64,000 nt of DNA from Calothrix sp. NIES-4105 (GTDB lineage Bacteria > Cyanobacteriota > Cyanobacteriia > Cyanobacteriales > Nostocaceae). The notes beneath the pieces are model-generated. The model saw only the letters and a list, made by a program, of their open reading frames with translations, ran no database searches and had not been told where the DNA came from. Positions 4,132 to 52,006 of the stretch are shown piece after piece (the stretch's first letter is position 1; every line of letters starts with the position of its first letter). Position numbers and translations under genes: made by a program. Where the stretch lies: assembly GCF_002368415.1 (NCBI RefSeq), contig NZ_AP018290.1:372001-436000 (forward strand), written 5' to 3'.

Positions 4132-4465
4132 AGAACATAAGAACCCCACCCCCTAACACAGTCCCCGCAAGCCTACTGTGTACACACATCTTTTAATCCT
4201 GCTTATATTCCCCCTTTGTGTACGAGTGTGTCTTTGTGGTTTATCTCTTTAAGGAACCACAAAGGTCACTGCATGTCACAAAGGAAGAGGAGAAAGATAA
4301 GAAAAGTAACTTTGAGAGGCTTGTGTGTAGACATTAGCCCTTATTAACTTTGGCTAGGGGGGATCAGTTATGATATAAAGACCAAAACCTACGCAGTATT
4401 GAGAGTTATATATCTTTGAAAATATATTACTATTACCTAAGTTGGGTTTTGTTAATCCGCTGCAT
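4132..4465. repeat. Intergenic stretch with a CACAAAG-type hairpin repeat
   Basis: No gene seen. It holds a perfect 10-bp inverted repeat CTTTGTGGTT / AACCACAAAG (4232-4264) preceded by a CCACCCCCTAAC / TGTGTACACACA tract. The same composite occurs around 52005-52210, so this is a dispersed repeat; related hairpins lie at 28545, 47757 and 50707. Confidence 0.7.
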
Positions 4466-4867: not shown

Positions 4868-4893
4868 TTTATCAATCCTGAAATTTAAGTTGT

Positions 4894-5102
4894 TTACTTT
4901 TTAGCCCAGCGTTCGCGCAGGAAATGCGCGACCATCTTGGGTCGTCGCTCGCGGGTGAACACGCCTTTAAAGTTCATTGCTGCTGCACACATTGTGCCTT
5001 GACCAGTTTTGAAATCGGCGAATGCCCATACGTGCATTCCTGCCACAAATGGTCGCTGCGCCGCAACATCAAGGAAGCCACGTTTGAACCAACGCAACTT
5101 TG
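4894..5102 (-). pseudogene. C-terminal relic of a GH2 beta-glucuronidase-like glycosidase
   Basis: About 67 codons match the extreme C-terminus of GH2 beta-glucuronidases: the [13 protein letters not shown] segment (family NFADF), then [22 protein letters not shown] (family KGIFTRDRKPK...LxxRW). The catalytic domain is absent, there is no proper start codon (the first possible codon is a TTG in the fusion joint), and the 5' end abuts the avaK-like relic directly. The relic is visibly richer in GC than its surroundings, which suggests imported DNA. Identification rests on the recognised family motif, not on a search. Confidence 0.75.
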
Positions 5103-5366
5103 GTAAACCCTAATGCATATACACGTTTACTACCAGGGAAAATACGAGTACGACCAATTGGTAGCAATAGTTGCTTACCAAAAATCCAAAAACCTGTGTC
5201 AATAACGATGGGGACAAAAACGACCCACTTCATCAACTAAAATATTCTTGACGGTGCCAACCTTCTGATCATCTTTATCTGTGTAAACATCCAGCCCAAT
5301 AATCTGATTACTACCAGCAGCGTCTAGGTAGTCTTTGTTAAAATCTTCAAGTTTGTAAAAAAGCAT
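5103..5366 (-). pseudogene. Decayed 5' half of a second AvaK-like PRC-barrel gene
   Basis: From ATG at 5364-5366 the frame reads like the AvaK-like N-terminus (KLEDFNKDY..., KVGTVKNILVDEVGRF). A one-base insertion near residue 50 then shifts it into a TGA. After the shift, homology to the parent (residues about 52-80: [24 protein letters not shown]) resumes in another frame until it joins the GH2 relic. It is therefore a truncated, frameshifted duplicate of the gene at 1212-2123. Confidence 0.85.
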
Positions 5367-5792
5367 TTTTCTCTCTTAGATGCAAAACCTAGTTACTTTT
5401 TAGATTAAAACTAAATATAAGTCATACGTCTACCCTAGGGTAGATATAACGAAGTAAATAATCTAATACTATTAATGGATATGAAGGATTTCAATATTCT
5501 TCTAAAGTCGGAATATGCAATGCTGTAAGGTAGTTAAGAGCCACGCTGTAACAACTTTAGCTCTCAGTGTAATGATAAGCATTTTTTAGCACAGTGGTTC
5601 AATAGAAAAACGTACAAGAGTAAGAAAACAAGCACCATTGCCGCTAGTTTTACCGAAATTTTCCAATTTTTCAATTCAGATTTATTCTGCTATGTTTATG
5701 GTGCCCATGCCTTGCCCATAAACACTTAATTAAGACTTTTTCAAAAATCAAAAAATATTTTATCAGGGTTCTACAGTTTTGGAGGAATTGCA
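5367..5792. other. Intergenic: duplicated avaK upstream region and SDR leader
   Basis: 5367-5645 is the second copy of the region upstream of the AvaK-like gene. The remaining 150 bases are AT-rich and lead into the SDR fragment, whose ATG is preceded by a good ribosome binding site (GGAGGAATTGCA). No further gene seen. Confidence 0.7.
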
Positions 5793-6060
5793 ATGAAGGG
5801 ATTAGCAGGAAAAAATGCGCTCATTACCGGAGCAAGTTCGGGTATTGGGCAAGCAATCGCAATTCGACTAGCTACTGAAGGTTGCAATATTGCCATCAAC
5901 TACCGCAAAAGTACAGAAGATGCTGAAGAAACAGAAGAAATGGCAATGCAAAAAGCTTGTGGACAAGTCTCTGAATGCGGTGTACAATCGCTACTCCTTC
6001 AAGGTGATGTTTCTCAAGAAGAAGACATTATTGATATGGTGAATACGGTTGTCGATAAAT
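5793..6060 (+). pseudogene. N-terminal fragment of an SDR dehydrogenase (glucose 1-dehydrogenase-like)
   Basis: Codons 1-89 encode a classical short-chain dehydrogenase N-terminus: the dinucleotide-binding TGASSGIGQAIA motif (residues 13-24), INYRKS after strand 2 (NADP-type), and GDVSQEED followed by MVNTVVDK. The frame then enters a transposon end at 6061 (TGTGG) and terminates at 6077. The matching C-terminal part lies 6.7 kb downstream at 12752-13120. The middle, about 60 residues with the NNAG motif, is missing altogether, so this is a disrupted gene with a deletion and not a simple insertion. Confidence 0.9.
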
Positions 6061-6515
6061 TGTGGTTTCGCGCATAACGTGAAATTTGTCGCGCAATTCG
6101 TGAAATAATTTTTACCCAGTTTCAGGGGTTTGAGCTATTTGTTGCAGATAAAGTGAAATTATGTTGCGGATAAAATGAAATTTGGTTCCTCTCCTAACGG
6201 GGAAATAAGGGTTTTAGGCATCGTGAACTAGCCCAGGATAAGTACTCATTTAATAATTAGAGCCTGCTCGGCGAGTAATAATATCAAAAGCTATTGTGCT
6301 TAAACTTAAGCCCTCAAAGTTAAAGCTCAAAAAAATCGCGCGCAACCCTTATGTTATGGGTAACAGAGCAATTGAGCGGCACTGTTAGTTGTAAATTTTA
6401 TCTTATCTGCAACATAATTTCACTTTATCCGCGACAAATAGCTGGAAGTCTTGAAATGCGGTTCTAATAATTTCACTTTATTCGCGACAAATTTCACGTT
6501 ATGCGCGAACCCACA
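6061..6515. mobile_element. 455-bp non-autonomous element with Tn7-like multi-site ends
   Basis: The ends are TGTGGTTTCGCGCATAACGT and the inverse of TGTGGGTTCGCGCATAACGT. The inverted homology continues inward about 125 bp. Each end holds several copies of a unit resembling TGTCGCGGATAAAGTGAAAT, as in Tn7-like or CRISPR-associated transposon ends with arrays of TnsB-type sites. The interior has no transposase or other gene. No target-site duplication is visible (left flank TAAAT, right flank CTTTT), so later rearrangement has removed one flank. A lone related end lies at 26357. Confidence 0.75.
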
Positions 6516-6827
6516 CTTTTCGGACTGACTGGAAGTAAACTGTTGCGCGAGAACCAACTAACTTAACACCAATCTCATTCTTTAGTTAGATGTTAGGTTT
6601 AGTTGAAAGCTTTAGGGTTTAGGTGTTCATTTGTAGTAGTTAATTTTTTTAGTAGTCTAGAAGGCTGATACGAAGGGTAAATCTTTTTAAGAGACTTCTA
6701 CATGCCTTTCGCTAATAAGCTATTATCCTACACTGTTCTCCGCTCCTGGTATTAGGGTTTGGACAAACAAATTTGTCCAAACTGCGATAAACAAAGCACC
6801 ATACAGCAAGCACGGGAGACAATAGAC
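6516..6827. promoter_or_regulatory. Region upstream of the foreign SRPBCC gene, with an 11-bp-arm palindrome
   Basis: No gene recognised in 6516-6756. At 6757-6782 a perfect inverted repeat GTTTGGACAAA-CAAA-TTTGTCCAAAC lies directly before the SRPBCC reading frame. It could be an operator, a hairpin, or a recombination end. The open frame continues upstream of the chosen start through codons that resemble the linker of the full-length homologue (STIQQA). The breakpoint that removed this gene's 5' end is therefore close to the palindrome. Confidence 0.5.
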
Positions 6828-7307
6828 ATGAGCCAACCAATTAAAGTTGAAAAGACGGTAACGATTAACAAACCAGCAGAGGAACTCTACCGCTTTTGGC
6901 ATAACTTTGGGAACTTGCCGCGCTTCATGAAGCATCTTAAAGACGTTCAGGTATATAACGATAAGCGTTCGCACTGGATTACCAGTGGACCGTTAGGCGG
7001 AAGCGTTGAATGGGATGCAGACATCGTTGAAGATCGGGAAAACGAATTGATTGCCTGGACTTCGATTGAAGGCGCAGACGTTGATAACTCTGGTATAGTC
7101 CGCTTCCAGCCAGCGCCTGGTAATCGCGGTACTGAAGTAAAAGTCGTCACTGAATATAATCCGCCTGGTGGAGTAATTGGAGATGCGATCGCCAAACTCT
7201 TTGGCGAAGAACCACAACAGCAAATCGGAGATGATCTGCGCCGCTTCAAGCAGTTGATGGAAGCAGGCGAAATTGCCACTACAGTTGGTCAACCAAAGGG
7301 AGGTTAA
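6828..7307 (+). CDS. SRPBCC family protein (5'-truncated xenolog)
   Basis: 159 residues of a START/SRPBCC helix-grip fold: [28 protein letters not shown] at the N-terminus, [16 protein letters not shown] in the middle and the long C-terminal helix [17 protein letters not shown] (COG5637-like). It matches the C-terminal three quarters of the resident protein at 47962-48654. It lacks that protein's glycine-rich membrane-like N-terminus, whose last residues (STIQQA) survive upstream as an untranslated or alternative extension starting at 6759. The ATG at 6828 has GGGAG nine bases upstream. Family members bind hydrophobic ligands; the role here is unknown. The downstream ADH gene starts 5 bases after the stop, so the two are one operon. 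Confidence 0.8.
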
Positions 7308-7312
7308 AGATT

Positions 7313-8482
7313 ATGAAAGCAGTTTGCTGGCACGGCGCTAATGATGTACGGGTAGAAACAGTTCCAGATCCCAAAATCCTTAACCCGCGCGATGCCATCC
7401 TTAAAGTGACATCAACAACCATTTGTGGTTCTGACTTGCACCTCTACGATGGCTACATTCCGACGATGCAACCGGGTGACATTTTGGGTCACGAGTTTAT
7501 GGGGGAAGTCGTTGAAATTGGCAGTGAAGTCAAGAAACTGAAAAAGGGCGATCGCGTAGCTGTCTCTTCGATGGTCGGCTGCGGTCAGTGCTTCTTCTGC
7601 ACTCAACAGATGTGGTCGCTGTGCGATAACTCCAACCCCAACGCTTGGATGCAGGAGAAGTTGTTTGGCTTTGGTACGTCGGGGATTTTTGGCTACTCAC
7701 ACTTGTTTGGTGGCTATGCTGGCGGCGATGCGGAATACGTGCGCGTGCCGTTTGCTGATCATGGTGCACTCAAACTTCCCCAAGATATTCCCGATGAAAA
7801 ACTGCTGCCGATCACCGATGCCTTTCCCACAGGCTACATGGGGGCAGATTTATGCAATATTCAGCCCGGAGATATCGTGGCAGTCTGGGGTTGTGGCCCG
7901 GTCGGACAATTCGCGATGCGTAGCGCCTATATGTTGGGTGCCGAGCGCGTGATTGGTATCGATCGAGTTCCCCACCGTCTGCAACTGGCGTCTGACTTTG
8001 CTAAAGCGGAAACGATCAACTATGAGGAAGTTGATGCGGGTGAAGCCCTCAAAGAAATGACAGGTGGTCGCGGTCCCGATGCTTGCATTGATGCAGTGGG
8101 AATGGAATCTCATGGTATGGGGTTGGAAGGATTCTACGATGAAGCGAAGCAAAAAGTCGGATTAGAAACCGATCGCCCTACCGTGCTGCGGCAAGTAATG
8201 CTTGCTTGTCGCAAAGGCGGCACCTTGTCAATTATGGGTGTTTACGCTGGCTTTGTGGACAAGATCCCAATGGGTGCTTTTATGAACAAAGGCTTGACGC
8301 TCAAAACCGGACAAATGCACGGGCAGAAGTATATGCCGATATTGTTGGATAGCGTTATAAAGGGCGAAGTCGATCCCTCTGTTGTGTTCACACATCGATT
8401 GCCTTTAGCAGAAGCTCCGCAGGGCTTTGAGCTTTTCAAGCACAAAAAAGACGGGTGCGTAAAAGTTCTATTGCAACCCTGA
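7313..8482 (+). CDS. Zinc-dependent alcohol dehydrogenase, type A (formaldehyde dehydrogenase-like)
   Basis: 389 residues of the medium-chain dehydrogenase superfamily, resembling glutathione-independent formaldehyde dehydrogenase-like proteins. Catalytic zinc ligands are visible at C38 (ICGSDLH) and H60-E61 (GHEF); structural zinc cysteines are C90, C93, C96 and C104. The Rossmann motif [10 protein letters not shown] follows near residue 195, and [16 protein letters not shown] marks the C-terminal half. The start is ATG 5 bases after the SRPBCC stop. Two HIP1 octamers lie in and just before this gene and no GGCGCC does, unlike its resident counterpart at 48825. Probable role: NAD-linked oxidation or reduction of alcohols and aldehydes in the cytosol; substrate is inferred, not shown. 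Confidence 0.9.
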
Positions 8483-8602
8483 AATGGCTAATAGTGAGAC
8501 TAGTCCCTACGGCGGTCACCTTAGGGAACTAGCGTTCCCGTTGGGCTCATAGCTAATGACTAATGTCAATAGCCATTAGCAATTAATAAGGAAGGAAAAA
8601 CA
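8483..8602. repeat. Spacer with inverted repeat between the two ADH genes
   Basis: AATGGCTA near 8483 pairs with TAGCCATT near 8571. Between them is an AGTCCCTACGGCGGTCACCT / AACTAGCGTTCCCG tract that looks like a dispersed cyanobacterial repeat. AAGGAAGG just before 8603 is the ribosome binding site of the next gene. Confidence 0.5.
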
Positions 8603-9781
8603 ATGAAAGCAGTCTGCTGGCACGGTGCCAACGAAGTGCGGGTAGAAACAGTACCCGAGCCAAAAATTATGAATCCGCGTGATGCTATTGTCAAAATTAC
8701 GTCAACAGCGATATGCGGCTCTGATTTACATCTTTATGACGGCTACATCCCCACGATGCAAAAGGGCGATATCCTGGGTCATGAATTCATGGGGGAAGTT
8801 GTCGAGCTAGGTAGCGCCGTTAAGAATGTCAAGATAGGCGATCGCGTTGTCGTACCTTTTACCATTTCCTGCGGCTCGTGTTTCTTCTGCAAAAAGGATT
8901 TATGGTCGCTGTGCGATAACTCCAACCCGAACGCTTGGATACCGGAAAAACTCATGGGTCATTCCCCATCTGGTCTGTTCGGCTACTCCCATATGATGGG
9001 TGGCTACGCTGGAGGTCAAGCTGAATACGCCCGCGTTCCCTTCGCCGATGTCGGTTTATTAAAGATTCCCGATGGACTAGCAGACGAACAAGTCCTATTT
9101 CTCACAGATATCTTCCCCACTGGATACATGGCAGCGGAAAACTGCGATATCAAGCCAGGGGATATTGTCGCCATCTGGGGCTGTGGACCAGTCGGACAGT
9201 TTGCGATTAGAAGCGCCTATATGTTGGGTGCCGAGCGCGTCATCGCTATTGATCGAGTTCCCGAACGTTTACAAATGGCGAAAGAAGGCAAGGCAGAAGT
9301 CCTCAACTATGAAGAGGTAGATGTTGGTGAAGCCCTTAAAGAAATGACGGGTGGACGCGGTCCCGATGCTTGCATGGATGCTGTGGGAATGGAAGCTCAC
9401 GGCACGGGTCCCGATTCATTCTACGACCAGGTCAAGCAAGCAGTAAGGATGGAAACAGACCGACCTACTGCCCTGCGGCAAGTGATTGTTGCCTGTCGCA
9501 AAGGCGGTACTGTATCAATTCCTGGCGTTTACGGCGGCTTTGTGGACAAGATCCCAATGGGTGCTGCTATGAACAAAGCTTTGACGTTTAAAACCGGACA
9601 AACGCACGTTCATCGTTACCTGCGCCCGCTACTTGAGCGTGTCCAAAATGGCGAGATCGACCCATCTTTTGTGATCACCCATCGTCTGCCGCTAGAGCAA
9701 GCACCGCACGGCTACGAAATTTTCAAGCACAAGAAGGACAACTGCATCAAAATTGTGCTCAAGCCAGGTCAGGCTGCCTAA
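8603..9781 (+). CDS. Zinc-dependent alcohol dehydrogenase, type B (formaldehyde dehydrogenase-like)
   Basis: 392 residues, a paralogue of the preceding gene. Zinc ligands are C38, H60-E61 and structural C90, C93, C96, C104; the Rossmann motif [10 protein letters not shown] is intact. It is clearly closer to the resident gene at 50837 (shared [22 protein letters not shown]-like and [16 protein letters not shown] segments) than to its neighbour, so the two subtypes A and B diverged before the cluster was transferred. It carries one HIP1 octamer (about 8839). A one-residue contraction is seen at [10 protein letters not shown] relative to the resident [11 protein letters not shown]. Substrate unknown; the family suggests short aldehydes or alcohols. 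Confidence 0.9.
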
Positions 9782-9834
9782 AACCCCACAAAAACACGAA
9801 AAACCAAGTCTAGCCAACACTTTAGGAGGTAGAG

Positions 9835-10398
9835 ATGACAGAAGAACTCACAAATAAGAAAGTTGCCATTCTGGTTACAGATGGGTTTGAGCAAGTTGAA
9901 ATGACTCAACCCAAGCAAGCCTTGGAGTCAGCAGGTGCTCAAACCCACATCATTTCACCTAAGAGCGATCGCGTTCAGGGCTGGAACCATTTTGACAAAG
10001 GGGATTTTTTCTCGGTAGATGTCCCCCTCGATAAAGTAAATCCAGCCGACTATGATGCCCTCCTGCTTCCCGGTGGTGTTGCCAATCCAGATCAACTTCG
10101 GACTAAAGCTAAGGCGATCGAGTTTATAAAGTCCTTCTTCGATACTGACAAGCCGGTAGCGGTGATCTGCCACGGACCTTGGACTCTGATCGAGGCAGAT
10201 GTGGTGCGCGGACGGCGGCTCGCCTCGTGGCCGTCGCTCAAGACCGATCTCCAGAACGCAGGTGCCCAGTGGGTAGATCAGGAAGTTGTAGTTGATAGCA
10301 ACCTCGTGTCGAGCCGCAAGCCAGACGACATCCCAGCCTTCAACCGGGAAATGATCGAGCTGTTCAGCCATGCAGGGCAGGTACGGCAGATGGTGTGA
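9835..10398 (+). CDS. DJ-1/PfpI family protein (YhbO/YajL-like glyoxalase or deglycase)
   Basis: 187 residues, type 1 glutamine-amidotransferase fold. The nucleophile elbow AVICHGPW places the reactive cysteine at C112 with H113 beside it. The conserved acidic residue lies in DGFEQVEM (E19 or E22). The ATG follows AGGAGGTAGAG, a strong ribosome binding site. Relatives such as YhbO act as stress-induced glyoxalases or protein deglycases. Position after two aldehyde/alcohol dehydrogenases suggests dicarbonyl detoxification (inference). It is a single-domain protein, whereas the resident homologue at 46663 carries an extra helical domain. Confidence 0.88.
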   Translation: MTEELTNKKVAILVTDGFEQVEMTQPKQALESAGAQTHIISPKSDRVQGWNHFDKGDFFSVDVPLDKVNPADYDALLLPGGVANPDQLRTKAKAIEFIKSFFDTDKPVAVICHGPWTLIEADVVRGRRLASWPSLKTDLQNAGAQWVDQEVVVDSNLVSSRKPDDIPAFNREMIELFSHAGQVRQMV

Positions 10399-10428
10399 GG
10401 ACTCGGAACGTTAATCAGGAGGACAGGT

Positions 10429-11268
10429 ATGGAACAGCATCGATTTGGTTCCACCCAGCGCGAGGTGGCAGTGATCGGTCAAGGAACTTGGTATATCGAC
10501 AATGGCGATCGCGCTTCTGCGATCGCCGCTCTGCGCCAAGGACTCGATCTTGGCATGACCCATATCGACACCGCAGAGATGTACGGCACCGCCGAGGACG
10601 TGATCGCCGAGGCGCTCATCGGGCGACGCGATGAGGTTTTCCTGGTCTCCAAAGTTCTTCCCGGAAATGCCTCTCGGAGAGGGACGATGGCAGCATGCGA
10701 GAAGTCCCTCGCTCGCCTTAAAACGGATCGGCTGGACTCTTATCTGTTGCACTGGCGCGGTCAACACCCACTGGAGGAGACGATCGCTGCCTTCGAGCAG
10801 CTTCAGCACGAGGGGAAGATTCTCTGCTGGGGCGTGAGCAACTTCGATGTGCCTGACCTTGAAGCAGTCCAGAAGATCGCTGGCGAGGGTTCTCTCGTCT
10901 GCAATCAAGTCCTTTACCATTTGAGAGAGAGAGCGATCGAACACGCTGTGATCCCCTGGTGTGAGAAGCATGGGGTCGCCGTAGTCGCATACAGCCCGTT
11001 CGGTCATGGGGATTTTCCCAGCTCGCGCACAACCGCAGGTCGCGTACTACAGGAAATCGCCGCCGCCCATAACGCCACCCCTCGCCAAGTCGCGCTCCGA
11101 TTTCTGGTGCGGCATTCCTCGCTCTTCGCAATCCCCAAAGCATCCAACCCCGAACACGCCGCTGAAAACGCGGGAGCCGGGGAACTCAATCTGACCCAAA
11201 CCGAACTCGATCGAATCGACGCAGCCTTCCCGACCGGATCTCGTCCCCGCGTGCTTCCCATGCTGTAA
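10429..11268 (+). CDS. Aldo/keto reductase
   Basis: 279 residues, a TIM-barrel NADPH-dependent reductase. The catalytic tetrad is visible as D47 (HIDTAEMYG), Y52, K75 (VSKVLP) and H108 (YLLHWR). The C-terminal IPKASNPEHAAENAGA contains the NADP-phosphate binding site. It would reduce aldehydes or ketones in the cytosol. The start is ATG after AGGAGGACAGGT, 30 bases past the DJ-1 gene, so they are co-transcribed. GC content is the highest of the window, and two HIP1 octamers sit near codons 26-32 (about 10504-10527), marking it as part of the imported block. The resident cluster at 46-54 kb has no counterpart. Confidence 0.92.
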   Translation: MEQHRFGSTQREVAVIGQGTWYIDNGDRASAIAALRQGLDLGMTHIDTAEMYGTAEDVIAEALIGRRDEVFLVSKVLPGNASRRGTMAACEKSLARLKTDRLDSYLLHWRGQHPLEETIAAFEQLQHEGKILCWGVSNFDVPDLEAVQKIAGEGSLVCNQVLYHLRERAIEHAVIPWCEKHGVAVVAYSPFGHGDFPSSRTTAGRVLQEIAAAHNATPRQVALRFLVRHSSLFAIPKASNPEHAAENAGAGELNLTQTELDRIDAAFPTGSRPRVLPML

Positions 11269-11551: not shown

Positions 11552-12751
11552 AGGACTTATGCATTGACAAGGAGTGCAAGCTATGCCTTAGAAGTAACAA
11601 AGAAAGACAGATGCGATCGCTAATCCTTAGGGGCTGCAAAAAAAACGGATAATACCTATGTTGCTCTATCTGGGGTTGGGATTATCAGAGCTACTACTAA
11701 GCCATCAACAGCAAAGTGTGACTTGAATACTTACACTCTATTTCTCCTGGCAGAATCAAAATACCCAGGATGTGTACGTTTGGCAAGAATTCTGGAAGAT
11801 TTATCTCATGATAGTGTCAATAGATTTTTGTTACGGGAGCAGTATGAACCCAAGGATTTATTTATCGAGTTAAGACCACATATCAATTTGAGCGGTGGAA
11901 CATTAAGTGGAGACGATACAGTAATTGACAAGCCTTATAGTGACCCAAATCTAACAGAATTAATCGGTTATTTTTGGTCAGGAAAACATCATCGTGTAGT
12001 CAAGGGTATTCAGTTAATAATATTGTACTACACCGACCCATCGGGTAAATCTGTACCTGTGAATTATCGCATCTACAACAAACTGGAAGGTAAAACTAAA
12101 AATGATTATTTAAGAGAAATGATTACAGAAGTTTTGGCTTGGGGAATGCAACCTTATACTGTGACTACAGACGCTTGGTATTCAAGCCGCGAAAACCTAA
12201 GATTTATTAGAGATAAGGGATTAGGGCTTTTTATGGGCATAGCTAAAAACCGCTCATGTTCTATCAATGGTCGAGATTATACCCAAGTCCAAAATCTAGA
12301 AATACCCGAAGAAGGCTTAATTGTGCATCTAAAAAGTTTTGGGAAAGTGAAAGTATTTCAAAAAGTCTTTAAAAACGGAGAGCCAAGATACTATATCATA
12401 TTTTTACCAGAAGCAGAAGAAGATGCACTAATTGCAATTACTAGGCTTGAATTTAAGGCATTACATTCAATTCATTGGGGGATTGAATGTCACCACAGAG
12501 CCATTAAACAGGTATGTGGAATTGAACAGTTTATGGTCAGAACAACTGAGGCAATAAAAACTCATTTTTTTAGTGCTATCCGTGCGTTTACTCAATTAGA
12601 GTTAATGCGAGCGGAAGAGTTAATTGAAAATTGGTACGAACTCCAAAGAAATTTATCTCAACAGCAGTGCTCGTGACTTCATTCTGGAACACCTTAAACA
12701 ACAGGTGGGCTTGAATGCACATAGTCCATTTCCTGTCAATGCGTAAGTCCT
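11552..12751 (+). mobile_element. IS701-like insertion sequence, 1.2 kb
   Basis: Terminal inverted repeats AGGACTTATGCATTGACA (11552-11569) and the inverse of AGGACTTACGCATTGACA (12734-12751) differ at one base. One DDE transposase gene lies inside, and a HIP1 octamer lies in the 5' part (about 11614). No matching target duplication is seen: the left flank is the foreign-block tail and the right flank is the SDR C-terminal fragment. The IS therefore marks a deletion or recombination joint. Confidence 0.85.
11723..12676 (+). CDS. IS701-family DDE transposase (probably 5'-shortened)
   Basis: 317 residues. The DDE residues can be placed: D64/D65 in SGDDTVIDKPYSD, the second D in VTTDAWYSS (about residue 150), and E in HWGIECHHRAIKQVCGIEQF (about 260), typical of IS4/IS701 enzymes with the YREK-like HRAIK helix. 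The only start in frame is TTG at 11723 with no ribosome binding site. A short frame beginning at an ATG at about 11658 ends just before it in another phase, so a frameshift or loss of the original start is possible. The protein otherwise appears full length. Confidence 0.8.
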   Translation: MNTYTLFLLAESKYPGCVRLARILEDLSHDSVNRFLLREQYEPKDLFIELRPHINLSGGTLSGDDTVIDKPYSDPNLTELIGYFWSGKHHRVVKGIQLIILYYTDPSGKSVPVNYRIYNKLEGKTKNDYLREMITEVLAWGMQPYTVTTDAWYSSRENLRFIRDKGLGLFMGIAKNRSCSINGRDYTQVQNLEIPEEGLIVHLKSFGKVKVFQKVFKNGEPRYYIIFLPEAEEDALIAITRLEFKALHSIHWGIECHHRAIKQVCGIEQFMVRTTEAIKTHFFSAIRAFTQLELMRAEELIENWYELQRNLSQQQCS

Positions 12752-13120
12752 ATCAATGTCTCTAGCGTTCACGAAATTATCCCTCGACCTTTTTATGCTA
12801 GCTATTCTATAAGTAAAGGTGGAGTGTCCAATCTAACGAAAACATTAGCACTAGAGTATGCAGGGCATGGAATTCGCGTTAATGCAATTGCACCTGGAGC
12901 AACGATTACGCCAATTAATGAAGCTTGGGTAGACGACCCACAAAAAAAAGCGATTGTGGAAAGTCATATTCCAATGGGTCGCGCTGGAACGGCAGAAGAA
13001 ATGGCAGCAGCCGTCGCATTTCTCGCTTCATCAGAAGCCGCCTATATTACAGGACAAACCCTAGTTATTGATGGCGGACTGACGCTGTATGCCGATTTTC
13101 GTGAAGCTTGGTCAGCGTAG
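12752..13120 (+). pseudogene. C-terminal fragment of the interrupted SDR dehydrogenase
   Basis: In frame directly from the IS border the sequence reads INVSSVHE, then the catalytic YxxxK as YSISKGGV, then [13 protein letters not shown], and ends with [13 protein letters not shown] and a normal SDR C-terminus. This completes the fragment at 5793-6060, apart from about 60 missing middle residues. A start at 12824 would give a 98-residue product without the catalytic tyrosine, so function is unlikely. Confidence 0.9.
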
Positions 13121-15663: not shown

Positions 15664-15729
15664 ACCTAAGATACAGCAATAGTTTTAAGCGCACGTGCCA
15701 TAAAAAGACAAACCTGATGGGGTGACAAT

Positions 15730-15872
15730 CTAGTAGTCTGTGTCATAAGTTTTGAGAGGTTCACTTCTTAAAAATTCTTTCTTTGTGTCCTTTGTGTCTA
15801 CCCTGCGGGAAATCCTCCGGATTATGTGGTTCATTCCTCCAACGCCCCAAAATTAATGACACGGACTAGTAG
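15730..15872. repeat. MITE-like inverted-repeat element, 143 bp
   Basis: CTAGTAGTCTGTGTCAT at 15730-15746 pairs with ATGACACGGACTAGTAG at 15856-15872 (two mismatches), and the homology extends a few bases inward. The interior has a CTTTGTGTCCTTTGTGTCTA tract of the CACAAAG repeat family. Confidence 0.65.
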
Positions 15873-16165
15873 CTTAAAAACCCTTTTATTGAGTGGTGTT
15901 GAAGGCTAATAAATCTAAAGTCAGAAAATGAATCAAAATTCAACTTTAGGCGCCTACTACAAATACCAAAGCGATATATCGTCTGTGTATTCCTTTAAAA
16001 TTACCTCGGATTTCTTCTGATTTGGTCTATCTGCTGCTAGGAAAGTAACGTTTTTTGTTCTTCTATCTTGCTGGTAATTTGTAAGTGATTCTCAGCACGG
16101 GTGGTTTACCCCCCACTACTGGGTAATTACTTTATATTTACCCATCAATAGTTTGGAGGAATAAC

Positions 16166-16614: not shown

Positions 16615-19600
16615 ATGAATGAAACTGCCCTAGACCGATTTTGGGAACTATTAGGATGGGTTCTTGCCCTTAACTCAGAAGCGTTTGAGCAAATTAATAC
16701 TTTGCCTTATGGCTCAACAGTGGCGCTGATTGTGGTTCTTTTTGCTAGCTTATCCCAAGTTATTGCTCAAAGTATTATTTTATTTGCCAACCGTGTCAAA
16801 ACAGTACGCTTTGTTTTAAGTTTACTGGTTGGAGCAATTGTATTTGCGTTTGGATATATATTTTTAGTTCTAAGTACTTGGCTTTTGGGGTTTGTTCCAT
16901 TTGCAGCTCAAGCTCCTTTTAAAGTCATAGCAAGGACTTTAGGATTTTGCTATGCACCACTAATTTTTAGTATTTTTGGGGCAATGCCTTACTTAGGAGA
17001 ACCAATCCTAGCAGTTTTGTCGCTGTGGCAGTTGCTAGCAATGATTGTAGGTTTAGCGGTTGTAAGCAATACCAATGTATGGCAAGCATTTGAAACTGTA
17101 GTATTGGGATGGTTTACGCTTTGGGTGGCGCAACGAACTATTGGACAGCCAATCGCTAAATTCGGTCGCTGGGTTATTTCCAAAGTGGCGGGTGTAAACC
17201 TAATCACTAAGCGTGAACAGTTTTTAGCAATTTTGCAAAGAAGATTACGCCCCTTCGAGGCAACTAATCTAACGGCAGTTAGCGCACCGAGTTGGGGCGC
17301 CGAAACCCAAAGTAATGTGCAGACTACAGCAGCCAAAAATCGTCTTTCTAGCTTAAATGCGATAACTAGAGAATTAGGCGGCATAATGATTATGGCTAGC
17401 GTAACTTTTGCAGTATTCTTTCTGTTTTCACCAATTCGTCATTGGTGGTTCGCCCCTTATGCAAATCTGGGCGGTATTTTTCAACTGATTTTCAATTTGA
17501 TATCGATTGGGATTATCATCTTTGTTGCTGCTGCACTTTTAGCTCCCCTAGAAGCCCTTGGCTGGTGGGCTGGTTGGTTTGGCGAACAAGTAGACACGAC
17601 GCGCGATGTAGCACAGTCGGAATCTCCACAACACCCATCCATTAGTCGTTATGTAATTTATCTTGATGGCATTGGTCAATCTTCATTTGATTATTTGCCA
17701 GATATTCAAGAATTTCTACACCATGTCGCACTTGTGTTACCAGAAGACATGGTTCTAATTAAAGGAATCATGCCCTATTCAGTTCGCAATAAACCACTGA
17801 CACAAAACCGTCCCTTGGCATTGTTATGGCGCCTAGCCGATCAATTTCGGTTCAAAAATCCTGCTAGCTTGTTGGGTTACTTAGTTAACATTCGCAACAT
17901 TTTAGTTGTTGCGGTTTCTGCTGACAAACGCTATGGGCTAATTTACAACTTAGGAATCGCACAGGTAATGTACCAAGCCCTAATCCGACACGGCTACCAA
18001 CTTGATAGCCGTGTACCAATTACCTTAATTGGTTATAGTGGCGGTGGACAAATGGCGGCAGCAGCGGCGCCGTTTTTGCGGCAAGCGTTAACTGCACCAA
18101 TCGAGATAATTTCCCTTGGTGGGGTGATTAGTGCCAATATCGATGTCCTGAAACTTGAGCATCTCTACCATCTGGTAGGTGACAAAGATACAGTTGAACG
18201 TATCGGCCCGGTAATGTTTCCCGGACGTTGGCCTATCTTCTTTCTGTCTTACTGGAACCGCGCGAAACGAATGGGAAAAGTCAAGCAGATTTCTCTAGGT
18301 CCAGTCGGGCATCAACTACCAGGAGGATTAATGGATCCCGAACAGTTTTTACCTGATGGTCGTAGTTACTTACAACAAACTATTGATTGGGTAGTAGGAA
18401 TTTTACTTAGCACTGTTAATCATTCAGATAATCATTCAGAGCGCGCAACTCGAAGCATCTTAAGTAATTACGAACGGTATAAACAAGCACCCTTCAATTG
18501 CCCAGAATTTTATCCAATACATCAATCAGTATCACAAGAATACTATCGACCGCAGGCAAGTTGGATGGGACGATTAATTCTGCCTGCACTCCCCGAACGA
18601 CAAGCGATTAAAGGAGTAAAGTTTGAAGTATATCATGCACCAAGAGATTTTCAGCATTTAGTTGGACAAGTTATCATTTTGCGTTTAAGTGACGACCCAC
18701 AGGTGCAGAGTTATGTTCAAGCAGTGACTAAAGACGTGCATTTTAGTCCCCAAGCAGAGTACAGTAGTCAACAGGGCAACGTTCATCCAACTCGAATTAA
18801 TCACTGGTGCCAAGTTAATCCTTTAGAATCGTTAGCAGGTTCCCATCCCGATGATGATGTAATGGTAATGCTGCCTGAACCAGTTGTTGTGCAGCACAAA
18901 AGCAACGAGGGAGATGAAACTCCACCCATCCTATATATCTCTCATGAACCAATTCAAATTACAGGGCGTTACGTAGGTTTAGTAAAATTTATACAACCTA
19001 TTGGCTCAGGAAGTGATAAGTTTCGTGTGGTTCACTTTAATCGAGTTTCAAGACAATTTGATGGCGCAGAAGAAATTGTCTCTCTGCCTCCAGTAATACC
19101 TAACCGCAATAATACTTATCCATCTACTAGTAAAGACATTGAAAAATCTACCCTAAACGAAAGCGGCTGGTACATTTATGGCGCCTGCGACTCATCAGGA
19201 GTATTCGTTGTGCAAGGTTTAGCCCCTCGTGCCTTGTTGCGCGTCGAACCAGAGCGCATGGTTGCAGGTTCTTCAGTCAAAAAATATCTCAAAAAAGAAT
19301 GTTGGGACAATCTAACTGCTCAAAAAGGTAAAATAAGTTCTGTTGTGCTAGATTCCCAGACAGCAACAAGTTCAAAAACAAGTTCAAATACAAGTTCAAA
19401 TACGTGGCGTGAAGGTGAACGCGCGTTACTAATTCACGTGTATGGGGGAATTGGTGGCAATAAAACCGAACCAAAGGCAAAAAGTCCGCTCTACTTTGGT
19501 CACTTTGCTTATGGAATTGCCACAGTAGTGCGGGAACCCTTAGCCGATGAATTACGATTTGAAATAGTTTATCACCAGATTTACACTCATAATAGTGATG

Positions 19601-46229: not shown

Positions 46230-46628
46230 ATGAAATACGACGAGTTTATTAAGCACGTTCAAAATGAGGCTGGGTTAAGTTCGCGCGACGAAGCTATAAA
46301 TGCAACTCGTGCCACACTCGAAACTATTCGCGAACGTATTGTTGGTGATGAAGCAAAAGATTTGGCATCGCAACTACCTAAAGAGTTAGGTGAATATCTA
46401 CATGGACGCGAAGGTGAAAATGGCGCTTACTTTAAATGTGACGAGTTCATCAAAAAAGTGAGCGAGAGAGAAGGTGTTTCGACAGAAGTTGCTACAAAGC
46501 ACGCGCGCGCTATTTTCAGTGTTTTAGAAAGTGCGGTATCCGCAGGTGAGTTTGAAGATGTTCGTTTAAATTTCTCTGATGATTACAGTGAGATACTACC
46601 TGCCGTTAAGAACGAAGTGAACGCATAG
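46230..46628 (+). CDS. DUF2267 family protein
   Basis: 132 residues. Two similar helical halves: MKYDEFIKHVQNEAGLSSRDEA and KCDEFIKKVSEREGVSTEVA, each followed by ATRATLETIRERI / HARAIFSVLESAV-type helices and a C-terminal acidic tail. This is the DUF2267 four-helix duplication. It occurs in stress loci; no activity is known. It heads the 46-54 kb cluster and ends 34 bases before the DJ-1 fusion. Confidence 0.85.
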   Translation: MKYDEFIKHVQNEAGLSSRDEAINATRATLETIRERIVGDEAKDLASQLPKELGEYLHGREGENGAYFKCDEFIKKVSEREGVSTEVATKHARAIFSVLESAVSAGEFEDVRLNFSDDYSEILPAVKNEVNA

Positions 46629-46662: not shown

Positions 46663-47754
46663 ATGTCAAGTAATGGCCATCAAAAAAAGAAGGTAGCTAT
46701 CCTTATTGAAGCTAATGTTGAGGATGCAGAATTTGAAGTACCATACAATGCTTTAAAGCAGGCAGGGATGGATGTTGTTGTTCTTGGTTCTCGGATGAAC
46801 GAGACTTACAAGGGTAAACAAGGCAAAACATCTGTTAAACCTGATGCTACTACAGCCGAAGCTATCGCTGCTGAATTTGACGCTGTCGTTATACCTGGTG
46901 GTATGGCGCCTGATAAAATGCGTTGTAACCATAACACAGTAAGATTTGTGCAGGAAGCGATGGCACAAAATAAGGTTGTTGCTGCTGTCTGTCATGGTCC
47001 ACAGGTATTAATAGAAGGTGACTTGCTTAAGGGTAAGCGGGCTACCGGATTTATGGCTATCCGTAAAGATATAATAAATGCAGGCGCCAATTTTGTTGAT
47101 GAAGCGTTAGTAGTTGATGGTAATTTGATTACATCACGTCAACCTGGAGATTTGGCTATATTCACCACAGCTATTTTGAGTCGTTTAGGATATGGTGGCA
47201 AAGATGTAGCTTTACCAGACGAAAAGGATAAAGATGCAGATTGGTGGAAATTAGCTGATGCTTGGGGTGGTTCTACGAAGGGTGAAATAGTCAAAGCACT
47301 TAATACAGCTTTGGCTGGTGAAAAGTATTCACTCGAAGCATTACAACAATACGAGCAAAAAGAATCTGACAGCCAAATTAAATCACTCTTTGGAGAGATG
47401 ATTAAAAATAAAGGGCGCCATATTCAATATTTAGAAGCGCGATTAAATCAACTTGGTGAAAAACCTTCACTAGCTGCGAATATCGCTAACCAGTATGCAA
47501 AAGTCAAAACTGCGCTAACTGGTAGTGATGATATATTCCAGTTACGTTCAGCATTAGGTGACGTTCAAACGGGTATTGGTGACCTAAGTAATTTATTGCC
47601 TTCTACAACTGACCCAATATCAACTGCTATTTTTGCAGAAATTGTCAAAGATTTAATCATGTCTGAACAGCGTTTAGTTGAGCTTTACCGTGCGCGACTT
47701 GGCACTTCGGTTAAACCAGCTAATCCTACCACAGGCGCCGCTGTGACTATGTAG
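46663..47754 (+). CDS. DJ-1/PfpI domain fused to a ferritin-like helical domain
   Basis: 363 residues. Residues 1-185 are a DJ-1/PfpI domain with acidic ANVEDAEFEV and the nucleophile AAVCHGPQVL (Cys near 113). Residues 205-350 form a four-helix segment with EIVKALNTALAGEKYSLEAL, GEMIKNKGRHIQYLEARL and FAEIVKDLIMSEQRLVELY, whose E and H residues recall ferritin-like or DUF2383-type bundles. GTGGAGGCAAT precedes the ATG. Its foreign counterpart at 9835 has the first domain only. The fusion may bring metal or oxidative-damage sensing to carbonyl repair (inference). Confidence 0.82.
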   Translation: MSSNGHQKKKVAILIEANVEDAEFEVPYNALKQAGMDVVVLGSRMNETYKGKQGKTSVKPDATTAEAIAAEFDAVVIPGGMAPDKMRCNHNTVRFVQEAMAQNKVVAAVCHGPQVLIEGDLLKGKRATGFMAIRKDIINAGANFVDEALVVDGNLITSRQPGDLAIFTTAILSRLGYGGKDVALPDEKDKDADWWKLADAWGGSTKGEIVKALNTALAGEKYSLEALQQYEQKESDSQIKSLFGEMIKNKGRHIQYLEARLNQLGEKPSLAANIANQYAKVKTALTGSDDIFQLRSALGDVQTGIGDLSNLLPSTTDPISTAIFAEIVKDLIMSEQRLVELYRARLGTSVKPANPTTGAAVTM

Positions 47755-47905: not shown

Positions 47906-47961
47906 GATTTTTACAATTTATCTAGGACTGATATATTTCATGTTTGTATAGGAGTATAAAA

Positions 47962-48654: not shown

Positions 48655-48655
48655 G

Positions 48656-48812
48656 AAAGTGATGAGTGCTGAGTTCTGAGTGCTGAGTAGGAAGTTAAAA
48701 GTAAAGATTTATAAGTTACATAATTCTAACGCAATCTTTCTAATTCCTTAACTTACCACTCCGGACTCTTAAATCCTAACTCAGCACTCAGCACTCAGCA
48801 CTCAGAACTATT
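48656..48812. repeat. Inverted GAGTGCTGAGT repeats
   Basis: GAGTGCTGAGTTCTGAGTGC at the left pairs with CTCAGCACTCAGCACTCAGC at the right around 90 bases. The same family is at 62882-62997. It separates the SRPBCC and ADH-A genes. Confidence 0.75.
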
Positions 48813-48824
48813 AACTATAAAAAT

Positions 48825-49994
48825 ATGAAAGCTGTTTGTTGGCACGGAGCAAATGACGTGCGGGTTGAAACTGTACCTGACCCAAAGATTATTAACCCGC
48901 GCGATGTCATACTGAAAATTACATCTACTGCCATATGTGGTTCTGATCTACATATATATGGTGGTTATATTCCTACCGTTCAGCCTGGTGATATCATCGG
49001 TCATGAATTTATGGGGGAAGTGGTTGATGTTGGTAGTAATATCAGTAATCTTAAAGTTGGTGATAGAGTAGTAGTACCTTCCATGATTGGTTGCGGTCAC
49101 TGTCATTACTGTTCACATGATATGTGGTCGCTGTGTGATAACTCTAACCATAAAGGTTGGATGGAAGAGAAACTATTTGGTAGTATCACTTCAGGTATTT
49201 ATGGGTATTCTCATACTTTTGGCGGATATGCAGGCGCCCAAGCTGAGTATGTAAGGGTTCCATATGCGGATGTTGGCACTCTTAAAGTTCCCAAAGATAT
49301 ACCAGATACTCAATTACTATTTATCTCGGATGCTATCCCTACAGGATATATGGGCGCCGAGTTATGTGATATTCAACCTGGTGATACTGTAGCTGTATGG
49401 GGATGTGGTGCTGTCGGTCAATTTGCTATGATTAGCGCTTATATGATGGGCGCCGAGAAAGTTATTGGCATTGACCGCTTTCCAGAACGGTTAGAGTTAG
49501 CAAAGAAATATGCTAAAGCTGAAGTTATCAACTACGAAGAAATAGACGCAGGTGAAGCATTAAAGGAAATGACTGGTGGTCGTGGTCCTGATGCTTGTAT
49601 TGATGCTGTAGGTTTAGAAGCGCATGGTGTAGGGTTTGAAGACTTTTACGACCAAACAAAGCAAAAACTGCGTTTAGAAAGCGACCGTCCCCACGTTCTA
49701 CGACAAATGATGTTAGCTTGTCGTAAAGGTGGCACCCTCTCCATTATGGGTGTATATGGAGGCTTCATCGATAAAATGCCTCTCGGCGCCGCTTTTAATA
49801 AAGGTCTAACCTTCCGTATGGGACAAATGCATGGTCAAAAGTACATGCATAAGCTTCTCGATCTCATATTAGAAGGTAAATTAGACCCTTCTCAAGTAGT
49901 AACACATCAACTTCCACTCGACCAAGCAGCACACGGTTACGAAATATTTCAGCAAAAGAAAGATAACTGTATTAAAGTAGTCTTGAAGCCGTAA
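48825..49994 (+). CDS. Zinc-dependent alcohol dehydrogenase, type A (resident copy)
   Basis: 389 residues, same length and zinc ligands (C38, H60-E61, C90, C93, C96, C104) as the gene at 7313, with MVGC replaced by MIGCGHCHYC at the structural site and WGCGAVGQFA for the cofactor. Shared residues throughout mark them as orthologous type A. This copy contains four GGCGCC sites (49232, 49352, 49450, 49785) and no HIP1 octamer, the reverse of the foreign copy. Predicted NAD-linked dehydrogenase of aldehydes or alcohols. Confidence 0.9.
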   Translation: MKAVCWHGANDVRVETVPDPKIINPRDVILKITSTAICGSDLHIYGGYIPTVQPGDIIGHEFMGEVVDVGSNISNLKVGDRVVVPSMIGCGHCHYCSHDMWSLCDNSNHKGWMEEKLFGSITSGIYGYSHTFGGYAGAQAEYVRVPYADVGTLKVPKDIPDTQLLFISDAIPTGYMGAELCDIQPGDTVAVWGCGAVGQFAMISAYMMGAEKVIGIDRFPERLELAKKYAKAEVINYEEIDAGEALKEMTGGRGPDACIDAVGLEAHGVGFEDFYDQTKQKLRLESDRPHVLRQMMLACRKGGTLSIMGVYGGFIDKMPLGAAFNKGLTFRMGQMHGQKYMHKLLDLILEGKLDPSQVVTHQLPLDQAAHGYEIFQQKKDNCIKVVLKP

Positions 49995-50069
49995 AAAACA
50001 ATTTTTTTGACAAATTTTGCGGCAATTAAGTTCAAATTCTCAACATCTATCCAATGGAGGAACTTTTCA

Positions 50070-50699
50070 ATGAATATATTACGTAGAGCATTGACTCTAT
50101 TAATAGCAGCATTTACATTTTTCACAGTTCAATTTGGTTTCACCAACATTCAGCCAGCAATAGCTGACAATACAGTAGTATCACCCGAAGGCGTATACTA
50201 CAAAGGTACGCCAGATGATGATATTCACAAAAACCTCAAACAAAATAACTACGGTAGCGATACCAATAAAAACAAGCAAAACAACGGTATCAAAGGCGAT
50301 AACTACCAAAATAACGCTGACGAAACCGAGTTCTACAGAACCAAAGTTGACGACGGTACTGTTGGAGAAGTTAAAAACAGAACTCAAGCCAGCGGCGGAA
50401 CAGTAACATCACCAGAAGGCGTATACTACAAAGGTGTACCAGATGATGATGTTCACAGAAGCCTCAGACAAAATAACTATCCTAGCGATACCGAAAACTA
50501 CAAAACCAGCAGCGGCAACATCATAGAGGAAATTAAAGAAAAAATCGAACAAACCGCTGAAACAGTAACAGAAAAACTCAACCTGAACGAAGAAACACCC
50601 CGCGCGACTAAAGAGTTCTTACGTTCTAGTGAAAAGCAAGTAGAAAAAGCAGTTGAACCTGTAACCGGAACTCGTAGCGGTTACTATCAACTTCCTTAA
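50070..50699 (+). CDS. Exported protein with two internal repeats
   Basis: 209 residues from ATG 50070 (CAATGGAGGAACTTTTCA upstream); the frame to 50007 is longer. A signal peptide (cleavage after AIA near 31) is followed by two copies of a 25-residue unit, VSPEGVYYKGTPDDDIH plus KQNNYGSDT and VTSPEGVYYKGVPDDDVH plus RQNNYPSDT, separated by a charged spacer. A helical tail (EEIKEKIEQTAETVTEKL) follows. The acidic PDDD turn suggests calcium or cation binding. The gene is inserted between the two ADH genes in this cluster but is absent from the foreign cluster. Function unknown. Confidence 0.75.
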   Translation: MNILRRALTLLIAAFTFFTVQFGFTNIQPAIADNTVVSPEGVYYKGTPDDDIHKNLKQNNYGSDTNKNKQNNGIKGDNYQNNADETEFYRTKVDDGTVGEVKNRTQASGGTVTSPEGVYYKGVPDDDVHRSLRQNNYPSDTENYKTSSGNIIEEIKEKIEQTAETVTEKLNLNEETPRATKEFLRSSEKQVEKAVEPVTGTRSGYYQLP

Positions 50700-50706
50700 C
50701 TCTTAC

Positions 50707-50800
50707 TTTGTAACCTACCCTTCGGGAAAACCTCCGGTTTACGTGTCCTTTGTGGTTATAAACTATAAACCACAAAGGCACAAAGAACACGAAGGAAAGA
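50707..50800. repeat. CACAAAG-type hairpin repeat
   Basis: GTGTCCTTTGTGGTTATAAA pairs with AACCACAAAGGCACAAAGAA around a short loop. It separates the exported protein from ADH-B. Confidence 0.75.
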
Positions 50801-50836
50801 AAGAAATTATTTACATTATTAATTAGGTATATAATT

Positions 50837-52006
50837 ATGAGAGCATTATGTTGGCATGGCGCCAATAAGGTTCAAGTAGATACAGTGCCAGACCCGAAAA
50901 TATTAAATCCGCGCGATGCAATAATTAAAATCACTTCAACAGCTATTTGCGGTTCAGACTTACACTTATTCAATGGCTTTATTCCTACTGTCCAAAAAGG
51001 GGATATATTAGGTCATGAATTCATGGGAGAAGTCGTTGAACTGGGAAGCGCTGTCAAAAACATAAAAATTGGTGACAGAGTAGTTGTTCCATTTACTATT
51101 GCTTGCGGAAACTGTTATTTCTGTCAGAAAGACCTATGGTCATTATGCGATAACTCCAACCCGAACGGATGGTTAGCAGAGAAGGTGATGGGTCATTCAC
51201 CTTCAGGTTTATTCGGATACTCCCATATTTTCGGAGGATACGCAGGTGGACAAGCAGAATACGCACGTGTACCTTTTGCTGACACAGGTTTACTCAAAAT
51301 ACCTGACGGTTTAACTGATGAGCAGGTTTTATTTTTAACAGATATTTTCCCAACAGGATACATGGCAGCAGAAAACTGTCATATCAAACCAGGTGATATT
51401 GTCGCTATATGGGGATGTGGACCCGTTGGACAGTTCGCAATAAAAAGCGCACAGATGTTAGGTGCCGAACGAGTCATTGCCATCGACCGTATTCCTGAAC
51501 GCTTACAAATGGCTAAAGACATATGTAAAGCAGAAGTTCTCAACTACGAAGAACTAGACGTAGGTGAAGCGCTTAAAGAAATGACAGGAGGTCGTGGTCC
51601 AGATGCAGTTATTGATGCAGTAGGACTTGAGGCACATGGTACAGATTTTATGGCATTGCACGACCAAGTTTTACAAGCCGTAAAGTTAGAACCCGACCGT
51701 CCAACAGCATTACGTCAAGTTATTGTATCTTGCGGTAAAGGTGGTCACGTTTCTATCGCAGGCGCCTACGGTGGATTTGTTGATAAACTGCCAATGGGCG
51801 CCGCAATGAACAAAGCTCTAACCTTTAAAATGGGACAAACACACGTTCATAAATATTTAAAACCTTTACTCGAACGTATTCAAAACGGTGATATTGACCC
51901 AACCTTTGTAATCACACACACCTTACCACTAGAACAGGCGCCGCACGGTTACGACATATTCAAGCACAAAAAAGATAACTGCATCAAAATTGTACTAAAA
52001 CCTTAA
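50837..52006 (+). CDS. Zinc-dependent alcohol dehydrogenase, type B (resident copy)
   Basis: 389 residues, orthologous in type to the gene at 8603: [31 protein letters not shown] and [16 protein letters not shown]. Zinc ligands and the cofactor motif [10 protein letters not shown] are intact. One start difference: [12 protein letters not shown] in place of [12 protein letters not shown]. It carries GGCGCC at 50859, 51761, 51797 and 51938. Predicted NAD-linked oxidoreductase; substrate unknown. Confidence 0.9.

Follow-up and report, generated by a model that had tools for sequence, protein, structure and literature searches.

The stretch of DNA analysed here (the window; 64,000 nucleotides, G000:C1:372001-436000) comes from a 12.0-Mb Calothrix-like genome and contains the same set of genes twice: one for an SRPBCC protein (S) followed by two for zinc-dependent alcohol dehydrogenases (ADHs) of distinct subtypes, A and B. 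The sets lie at 6828-9781 (S1, A1, B1) and 47944-52006 (S2, A2, B2), 41 kb apart, each within a larger cluster of genes (Table 1). A genome-wide search with A1 returned four close ADHs, all of them in the window, and a fifth match at 31% identity.

Table 1. Features of the two SRPBCC-ADH clusters and of the insertion site, by position in the window.
Feature	Position	Strand	Basis or remark
5' part of split short-chain dehydrogenase (SDR) gene	5793..6058	+	76-78% DNA identity to intact SDR paralogue (L189) and three genus relatives
Element like a miniature inverted-repeat transposable element (MITE), with long imperfect inverted repeats	6058..6546	.	Repeats ~130 bp, 83%; place of transposon left end elsewhere
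Conserved leader of acquired operon	6547..6827	+	86-91% DNA identity in L009, L169, L174
SRPBCC (Polyketide_cyc) S1	6828..7307	+	PF03364 2e-16; 73.4% to S2
Zinc dehydrogenase A1, A type	7313..8482	+	PF08240 + PF00107; A clade; 89% to Chlorogloeopsis
Zinc dehydrogenase B1, B type	8603..9781	+	PF08240 + PF00107; B clade; 97% to Chlorogloeopsis
DJ-1/PfpI protein (PfpI/YhbO subfamily)	9835..10398	+	TIGR01382 above cut-off
Aldo/keto reductase AKR1, last gene of acquired operon	10429..11268	+	PF00248
IS701-family insertion sequence (IS), right end of element	11554..12749	+	Ends GACTTATGCATTGAC (left), GTCAATGCGTAAGTC (right)
IS701-family transposase open reading frame (ORF)	11723..12676	+	NF049921 362.9 bits, cut-off 250
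3' part of split SDR gene	12750..13120	+	75-77% to intact SDRs
DUF2267 protein, first gene of resident neighbourhood	46230..46628	+	PF10025 3e-35; same place in many Nostocales loci
DJ-1/PfpI domain fused to DUF2383-type domain	46663..47754	+	PF01965, PF09537
SRPBCC S2 with N-terminal hydrophobic segment	47944..48654 (GTG alternative 47962)	+	PF03364
Zinc dehydrogenase A2, A type, resident	48825..49994	+	96% to Calothrix PCC 7716
Small predicted secreted repeat protein between A2 and B2	50007..50699 (TTG start uncertain)	+	Pfam match sub-threshold
Zinc dehydrogenase B2, B type, resident	50837..52006	+	98% to genus relative

The gene order of the second cluster (DUF2267, DJ-1 with DUF2383, SRPBCC, A, small secreted protein, B) recurs in Calothrix, Spirirestis, Nostoc and Anabaena (L021, L020, L023 and L030, among others; loci are numbered L and genomes G), and A2 and B2 follow the genus in the tree. 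Because this order is common to relatives, the cluster at 47-52 kb is the vertically inherited, resident form. A secreted protein of the 50007-50699 type separates A from B in many resident clusters, mostly with low scores between relatives, and is absent from the first cluster. The hydrophobic segment at the N terminus of S2 is likewise missing from S1; a shortening of S1 by the insertion was considered and rejected, since the short form and the leader are found in Chlorogloeopsis as well.

The cluster at 6.8-11.3 kb differs in composition and in affinity. Its genes from S1 to AKR1 have a GC content at third codon positions (GC3) of 0.44-0.64, against 0.21-0.36 for the 13 other window genes measured. 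Over 4.0 kb, the block shares 88.8% identity with a 485-kb plasmid from Nostoc sp. HK-01 (typed mobilizable), where all five genes occur in order; it is 87.5-88% identical to Chlorogloeopsis from S to DJ-1, with other sequence beyond, and 88-91% identical to G437, in which A is interrupted. Among the matches listed for six genus relatives, DNA identity was 70-79% for the A/B genes and 70-72% for the reductase. Relatives of AKR1 at 94-96% were present in 3 of the 118 family genomes searched, its own genome aside, and a plasmid search with the whole block gave no record covering 80% of the query. A truncated second aldo/keto reductase gene lies about 62 kb away, outside the window (L183:9492-9917, G000:C1:445501-445890), and matches the first 130 AKR1 residues at 82% identity.

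This block sits within an SDR gene, whose 5' part ends at the MITE-like element and whose 3' part starts at the IS; by comparison with the intact paralogue, about 167 bases of the gene are absent between the two parts. The MITE-like element (489 bp) contains repeated TTTCAC/TGTCGCG motifs and has one full copy in the genome, and homology with other copies of the block starts at 6547. The leader is likely to be the promoter region; a search for promoters and terminators, which covered the leader for promoter-like sites, found no excess of sites over shuffles. The cluster at 6.8-11.3 kb is thus acquired, is inserted in an SDR gene, and has its nearest relatives in Chlorogloeopsis and on the Nostoc HK-01 plasmid.

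An earlier note on this DNA had described the module as present twice, one copy resident and one acquired, and this is borne out by the gene order in relatives for the one and by GC3, the split SDR gene and the affinity to Chlorogloeopsis and HK-01 for the other. Its description of a conserved order was right for the S-A-B succession and the subtypes, but has to be amended for the extra gene between A2 and B2 and for the N-terminal segment that S1 lacks. DJ-1 proteins do accompany both sets, as it said, after the module in one and ahead of it and fused in the other. The two proteins score 179 and 162 bits against TIGR01382 (PfpI/YhbO; cut-off 139), but they are only 35.7% identical, which suggests separate recruitment or old paralogues. 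The note had also called the module mobile; IS701-family ends, differing flanks and the plasmid copy agree with this, although the mobilising unit itself had escaped it.

That unit is visible from the IS to the right of the block, which is 1,196 bp long and the sole full-length copy found in this genome; L176 has a 98% copy at the corresponding place. An inverted copy of its right end (window 12714-12752; 39-48 bp, 90-100%) lies upstream of the operon in L009, L169, L174 and L176. The left ends in these four genomes align to the same base, and the 30-base flanks outside them are unrelated. Both ends are present in L176 and L174, delimiting units of about 8.2 and 8.5 kb. The inverted terminal repeats comprise 39 bp with 94.9% identity between the outer ends in L176, and the ends of the window IS are 91% identical over 23 bp. 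With a left end that duplicates the right one, and an inner left end still in place, the unit resembles a composite transposon in which the left-hand IS has been reduced to its terminus. In the window copy, only one of the two outer ends expected of a composite or passenger transposon was seen, as the left end was not found; with that end gone, this copy is probably immobile. The IS end sequence (≤3 mismatches) occurs in 3 of 388 genomes of the order, the window's own included; the carriers G437, G469 and G010 lie outside that sample. A 76.5% relative of the IS in G012 (L188:217-1536) has an additional inverted right end roughly 110 bp upstream, which leaves too little room for cargo.

An IS701-family element probably carried the acquired cluster as its cargo. 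The operon would have arrived by transposition within a unit made of an inverted IS right end on the left, the operon, and the IS on the right. This unit would have inserted in the SDR gene, the left end and about 167 SDR bases being lost afterwards, where the MITE-like element now lies, and the window copy would by now be fixed.

To judge from the phylogeny, ADH-A and ADH-B are two old paralogous lineages. Protein identity is 73.5% for A1/A2, 84.8% for B1/B2, 72.7% for A1/B1 and 66.1% for A2/B2, and at the DNA level A1/B1 (75.8%) exceeds both A2/B2 (72.7%) and A1/A2 (72.3%). With A1/A2 barely above A1/B1 in protein and below it in DNA, identity alone would not settle the grouping; trees do. 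A and B form separate clades in a tree of 148 ADH rows and in one of 40 rows (split 100/100), and in both trees the cyanobacterial A sequences make up one side of a branch while B groups with ADHs of other phyla. L063 (Bacteroidota, on a long branch) falls beside A in the 148-row tree and is not among the rows of the smaller one. A1 and B1 group with Chlorogloeopsis, and A2 and B2 with Calothrix. The claim that A resembles A and B resembles B therefore stands on the trees. The contrary topology, with A and B of each cluster as pairs, which the earlier note had named as refuting its reading, was looked for and rejected by the approximately unbiased (AU) test: forcing A1 with B1 or A2 with B2 cost 241 and 353 log-likelihood units, respectively (p-AU 6e-95 and 2e-49). 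The DNA similarity of A1 and B1 likely reflects a shared GC bias; gene conversion between them was rejected, as 120-nt windows ranged from 62 to 82% with no near-identical tract. Eleven positions are fixed differently between the subtypes (>90% in each; 29 A rows, 83 B rows). At nine of these, the 36 non-cyanobacterial rows most often have the B residue, and at two the A residue, so that B looks ancestral and A derived.

Gene content is asymmetric. Type calls within cyanobacteria were made by bit score against B1 (whole B genes, ≥722; A, about 631-682). Half of 60 relatives had a match, 17 with A and B and 13 with B only. A scan of 386 genomes across the phylum, with at most four candidates scored per genome, gave matches in 34: eight with both subtypes, 24 with B only (one a fragment, G054), and two assigned to neither type, namely G104 (638 bits to B1, to which it is closer than to A1, 636 versus 573) and G092 (383 bits). 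The genomes of seven further loci added six with both and one with B only; four of the six were chosen for a locally solitary A, and each has B elsewhere. The L013 and L015 genomes were left out of that set; L049, which has B, is from the same assembly as L015. After removal of overlaps (three genomes with A, seven B-only), A was never found without B in up to 28 genomes and B lacked an intact A in 31; the seven genomes reached through loci may still repeat others in these totals. The co-occurrence of subtypes raised by the earlier note thus holds for A and fails for B: on these counts, the evolutionary dependence is one-way, A on B and never the reverse.

Individual loci were surveyed as the best 80 of a similarity-ranked scan (44 cyanobacterial, 36 non-cyanobacterial), a sample that is biased to close relatives and in which some loci are cut by contig ends. 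A and B are adjacent in 21 of the cyanobacterial loci (reversed in L016), A stands alone in six, and B occurs without intact A, within the stretch examined, in 17. Fragments of A stand beside B in some loci (L037, L042, L170 and L197). Chlorogloeopsis carries two A-B pairs. Because A is never found without B and B is often found without A, we regard B with SRPBCC as the core and A as a later partner.

This core is not confined to cyanobacteria. At the threshold used, SRPBCC lies directly upstream of ADH in 32 of the 36 non-cyanobacterial loci; among the remaining four, L074 and L086 have weaker SRPBCC matches and L075 and L084 none. The single ADH of these loci is B-like by score in 34 (exceptions, L063 and L086). 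ADH is the next gene after SRPBCC in five of six plasmid loci, and in the sixth, from Trichormus, S and B are separated by a fragment of A. Stop and start of the two genes overlap in the two of these plasmids that come from Deinococcus. A plasmid of Deinococcus aetherius has two tandem SRPBCC-ADH pairs, and the gene after them carries the annotation glutathione-independent formaldehyde dehydrogenase. The remaining surroundings are not conserved: in 21 non-cyanobacterial loci with 88 neighbour proteins, the top families had three members each (DJ-1/PfpI, TetR, outer-membrane barrel, Catalase_C), and in Rhodobacter a gene annotated as formaldehyde-sensitive repressor is found near an S-ADH pair. 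On sequence evidence, the SRPBCC-ADH core pair is older than the A/B set.

The alignment and structural models give some indication of chemistry. Seven zinc ligands (C38, H60, D169 and C90, C93, C96, C104), whose identities, the Asp included, we take from 1kol, are kept in all 148 rows, and the idea of A as a decayed enzyme is thereby ruled out for intact rows. Position 86, which we take to correspond to the substrate-pocket residue Phe93 of horse liver ADH, holds Phe in all 83 B sequences and Ser in all 29 A sequences; formaldehyde dismutase also has Phe there in the alignment. At position 170, which adjoins the Asp ligand, B has Ile in 78 rows and Val in 5, and all 29 A rows have Ala. Given these changes at 86 and 170, the pocket of A should be wider than that of B. 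A model of A1 (pLDDT 85.3) best matched TADH and formaldehyde dismutase/dehydrogenase. The SRPBCC model (pLDDT 84.7) has a helix-grip fold with 337 PDB matches at E≤0.001, the best being 3ggn (DR_A0006, 44% identity). In the portions available of two papers on Deinococcus radiodurans, the CRP protein DR0997 binds the promoter of dra0006, whose expression is lower in the mutant, and the dra0006 product is treated as adenylate-cyclase-like (PMC4868304, a stress-response study); dra0006 is also co-expressed with the regulator DR0997 (PMC7314050). As the solved fold of DRA0006 is that of SRPBCC, a 'cyclase' of the polyketide kind, the cyclic AMP link drawn in the part of PMC4868304 available appears doubtful.

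SRPBCC-ADH adjacency, the DJ-1 and aldo/keto companions, and the one annotation of a formaldehyde-sensitive repressor point indirectly to carbonyl handling. We regard a carbonyl role of the module as an evenly balanced proposition and suggest more tentatively that SRPBCC is the substrate partner of the ADH. In this scheme SRPBCC, membrane-tethered in its resident form, would bind a hydrophobic carbonyl or alcohol, such as a lipid-peroxidation product, and hand it to its zinc dehydrogenase. B would be the ancestral enzyme with a formaldehyde-dehydrogenase-like pocket, and A a duplicate whose wider pocket admits bulkier substrates; DJ-1 and the reductase would take care of dicarbonyls, and the cell would benefit under desiccation.

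Other histories for the two clusters were weighed against transposition of one and vertical descent of the other. Their distance of only 41 kb, and the greater DNA identity of A1/B1 than of A2/B2 or A1/A2, might suggest a recent duplication within this genome followed by divergence, a reading that the AU test refutes and that is further contradicted by the difference in GC3, by nearest relatives in Chlorogloeopsis for one cluster and Calothrix for the other, and by the two A-B pairs of Chlorogloeopsis itself; we give it practically no credence. A more serious competitor, although still an unlikely one, is that plasmids or homologous recombination moved the block and that the IS ends inserted beside it afterwards. 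Besides the mobilizable HK-01 plasmid, plasmids typed conjugative (Nostoc C057, Trichormus) carry S and B with a decayed A, and the G010 copy (L176) is a mosaic (S-A-B 74-75%, DJ-AKR 96%, IS 98%) with the switch inside the end of ADH-B, so that recombination does happen. Target sites add little either way. The part available of a 2008 survey gives the IS701 target duplication as exactly 4 bp and the size range as 1,400-1,550 bp (PMC2266710). The outer ends, available for two copies only, show 4-bp CTAG on both sides in L174, the length given in the survey, but CTAG/CTAA in L176; if IS701 always targets YTAR sites, a match would arise by chance about 1 time in 4. Some features of the unit weigh against transposition: the window IS, at 1,196 bp, is below this range, which is typical and not defining. 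The right-hand IS is divergent in L174 (77%), and none is found to the right of L009 or L169 within the stretch examined. What later insertion beside the block does not readily accommodate is a left end at the same base in four genomes with unrelated flanks, matched by an inverted end at the right in the window and L176, for an end sequence as rare as this one (3/388, with G437, G469 and G010 not in the sample). Carriage by the IS701-family element remains our preferred account.

The functional reading meets objections of its own. The ADHs score 191-224 bits against the NCBIfam model fdhA (TIGR02819), whose cut-off is 637; at so far below the cut-off, they are not glutathione-independent formaldehyde dehydrogenases proper. 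An FrmR-like repressor as a general companion had to be dropped, since it occurs at one locus only (partial query), and the open-licence literature searched yielded no data on expression, substrates or phenotypes of the module. In plasmid lineages, moreover, S and B persist while A has decayed (L170, L197) or is missing (L171). This last observation argues against an obligate A-B pair. For A and B as an obligate hetero-oligomer, the constant presence of B with A in up to 28 genomes might be cited; both subtypes, however, keep all zinc ligands, they lie apart in at least six genomes (G024, G738, G739, G740, G741, G743), and shared operon history explains their co-occurrence, so that we judge the oligomer improbable. 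It is also conceivable, if unlikely, that the set belongs to a dedicated biosynthetic or catabolic pathway, such as one for a lipid or an acetoin-type metabolite, rather than to stress detoxification: SRPBCC folds include aromatase/cyclases and ligand-binding proteins, and DR_A0005 is discussed as a possible acetoin reductase in the part available of PMC11219805. Pathway genes, however, do not recur among the 88 neighbours of the 21 non-cyanobacterial loci, where no family exceeds three members, and the companions that do recur in cyanobacteria are DJ-1, DUF2267 and sometimes aldo/keto reductase genes.

Taken as a whole, the combination of an IS701-borne operon, a vertical resident copy and a carbonyl mechanism seems to us rather likely. 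The most far-reaching version has a low probability: that an IS701-family transposon spreads a complete carbonyl-defence operon among cyanobacterial chromosomes and plasmids, in which a wide-pocket ADH-A works only with ADH-B and a substrate-delivering SRPBCC, and of which the bare pair exists in at least eight other phyla.

Elsewhere in the window, a PRC-barrel gene (1212-2123) has many partial matches within its own genome, and a putative remnant of a broken PRC-barrel gene, judged by eye, lies on the minus strand at 4880-5370. The intergenic segments 4173-4337 and 15727-15876 are repeated across the genome (up to 99% and 91% identity, respectively) and are probably small dispersed repeats. 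An ORF of 1212 residues at 16615-20253 is without a Pfam match.

The locus draws attention to a widespread, uncharacterised pair of SRPBCC and zinc dehydrogenase linked to mobile DNA, and, with its older and newer copies in a single cell, offers a ready comparison. If it is true that SRPBCC delivers substrate, a large family now called cyclase/dehydrase would gain a testable function. Searches of the open-licence literature for SRPBCC/ADH, formaldehyde dehydrogenase, desiccation and DRA0006/DRA0005 found no publication on the SRPBCC-ADH-A-ADH-B module.

Parts of the module can nevertheless be set beside known systems. With FdhA and formaldehyde dismutase (1kol, 4jlw, 2dph) its ADHs share the medium-chain dehydrogenase/reductase (MDR) zinc dehydrogenase family, 33-34% identity over almost the full length and the same zinc ligands; they differ in scoring a third of the family cut-off, in pairing with SRPBCC and in having two subtypes. 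TADH of Thermus sp. ATN1 (4cpd) is the best solved match by both sequence and fold, but has 347 residues and lacks stretches present in the module ADHs (about 107-122 and most of 265-297). The closest solved SRPBCC is DR_A0006 of D. radiodurans (3ggn, 2kcz; 43-48% identity), and DR_A0005, presumably its neighbour to judge from the gene numbers alone, is listed as a zinc-containing alcohol dehydrogenase in the part available of PMC8779699. For the mobile unit, the nearest parallel is the IS231 subgroup, in which cargo lies between the left inverted repeat and the transposase, as it does here; in the available part of the 2008 survey, passenger genes were known only from that subgroup, with the remark that other groups had not been searched thoroughly (PMC2266710). 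An IS701-type element with passenger genes would extend this arrangement, with the proviso that later reports were sought only briefly. The unit described here differs from IS231 in belonging to the IS701 family and in having a left end duplicated from the right one alongside a surviving inner left end, an arrangement reminiscent of a decayed composite transposon.

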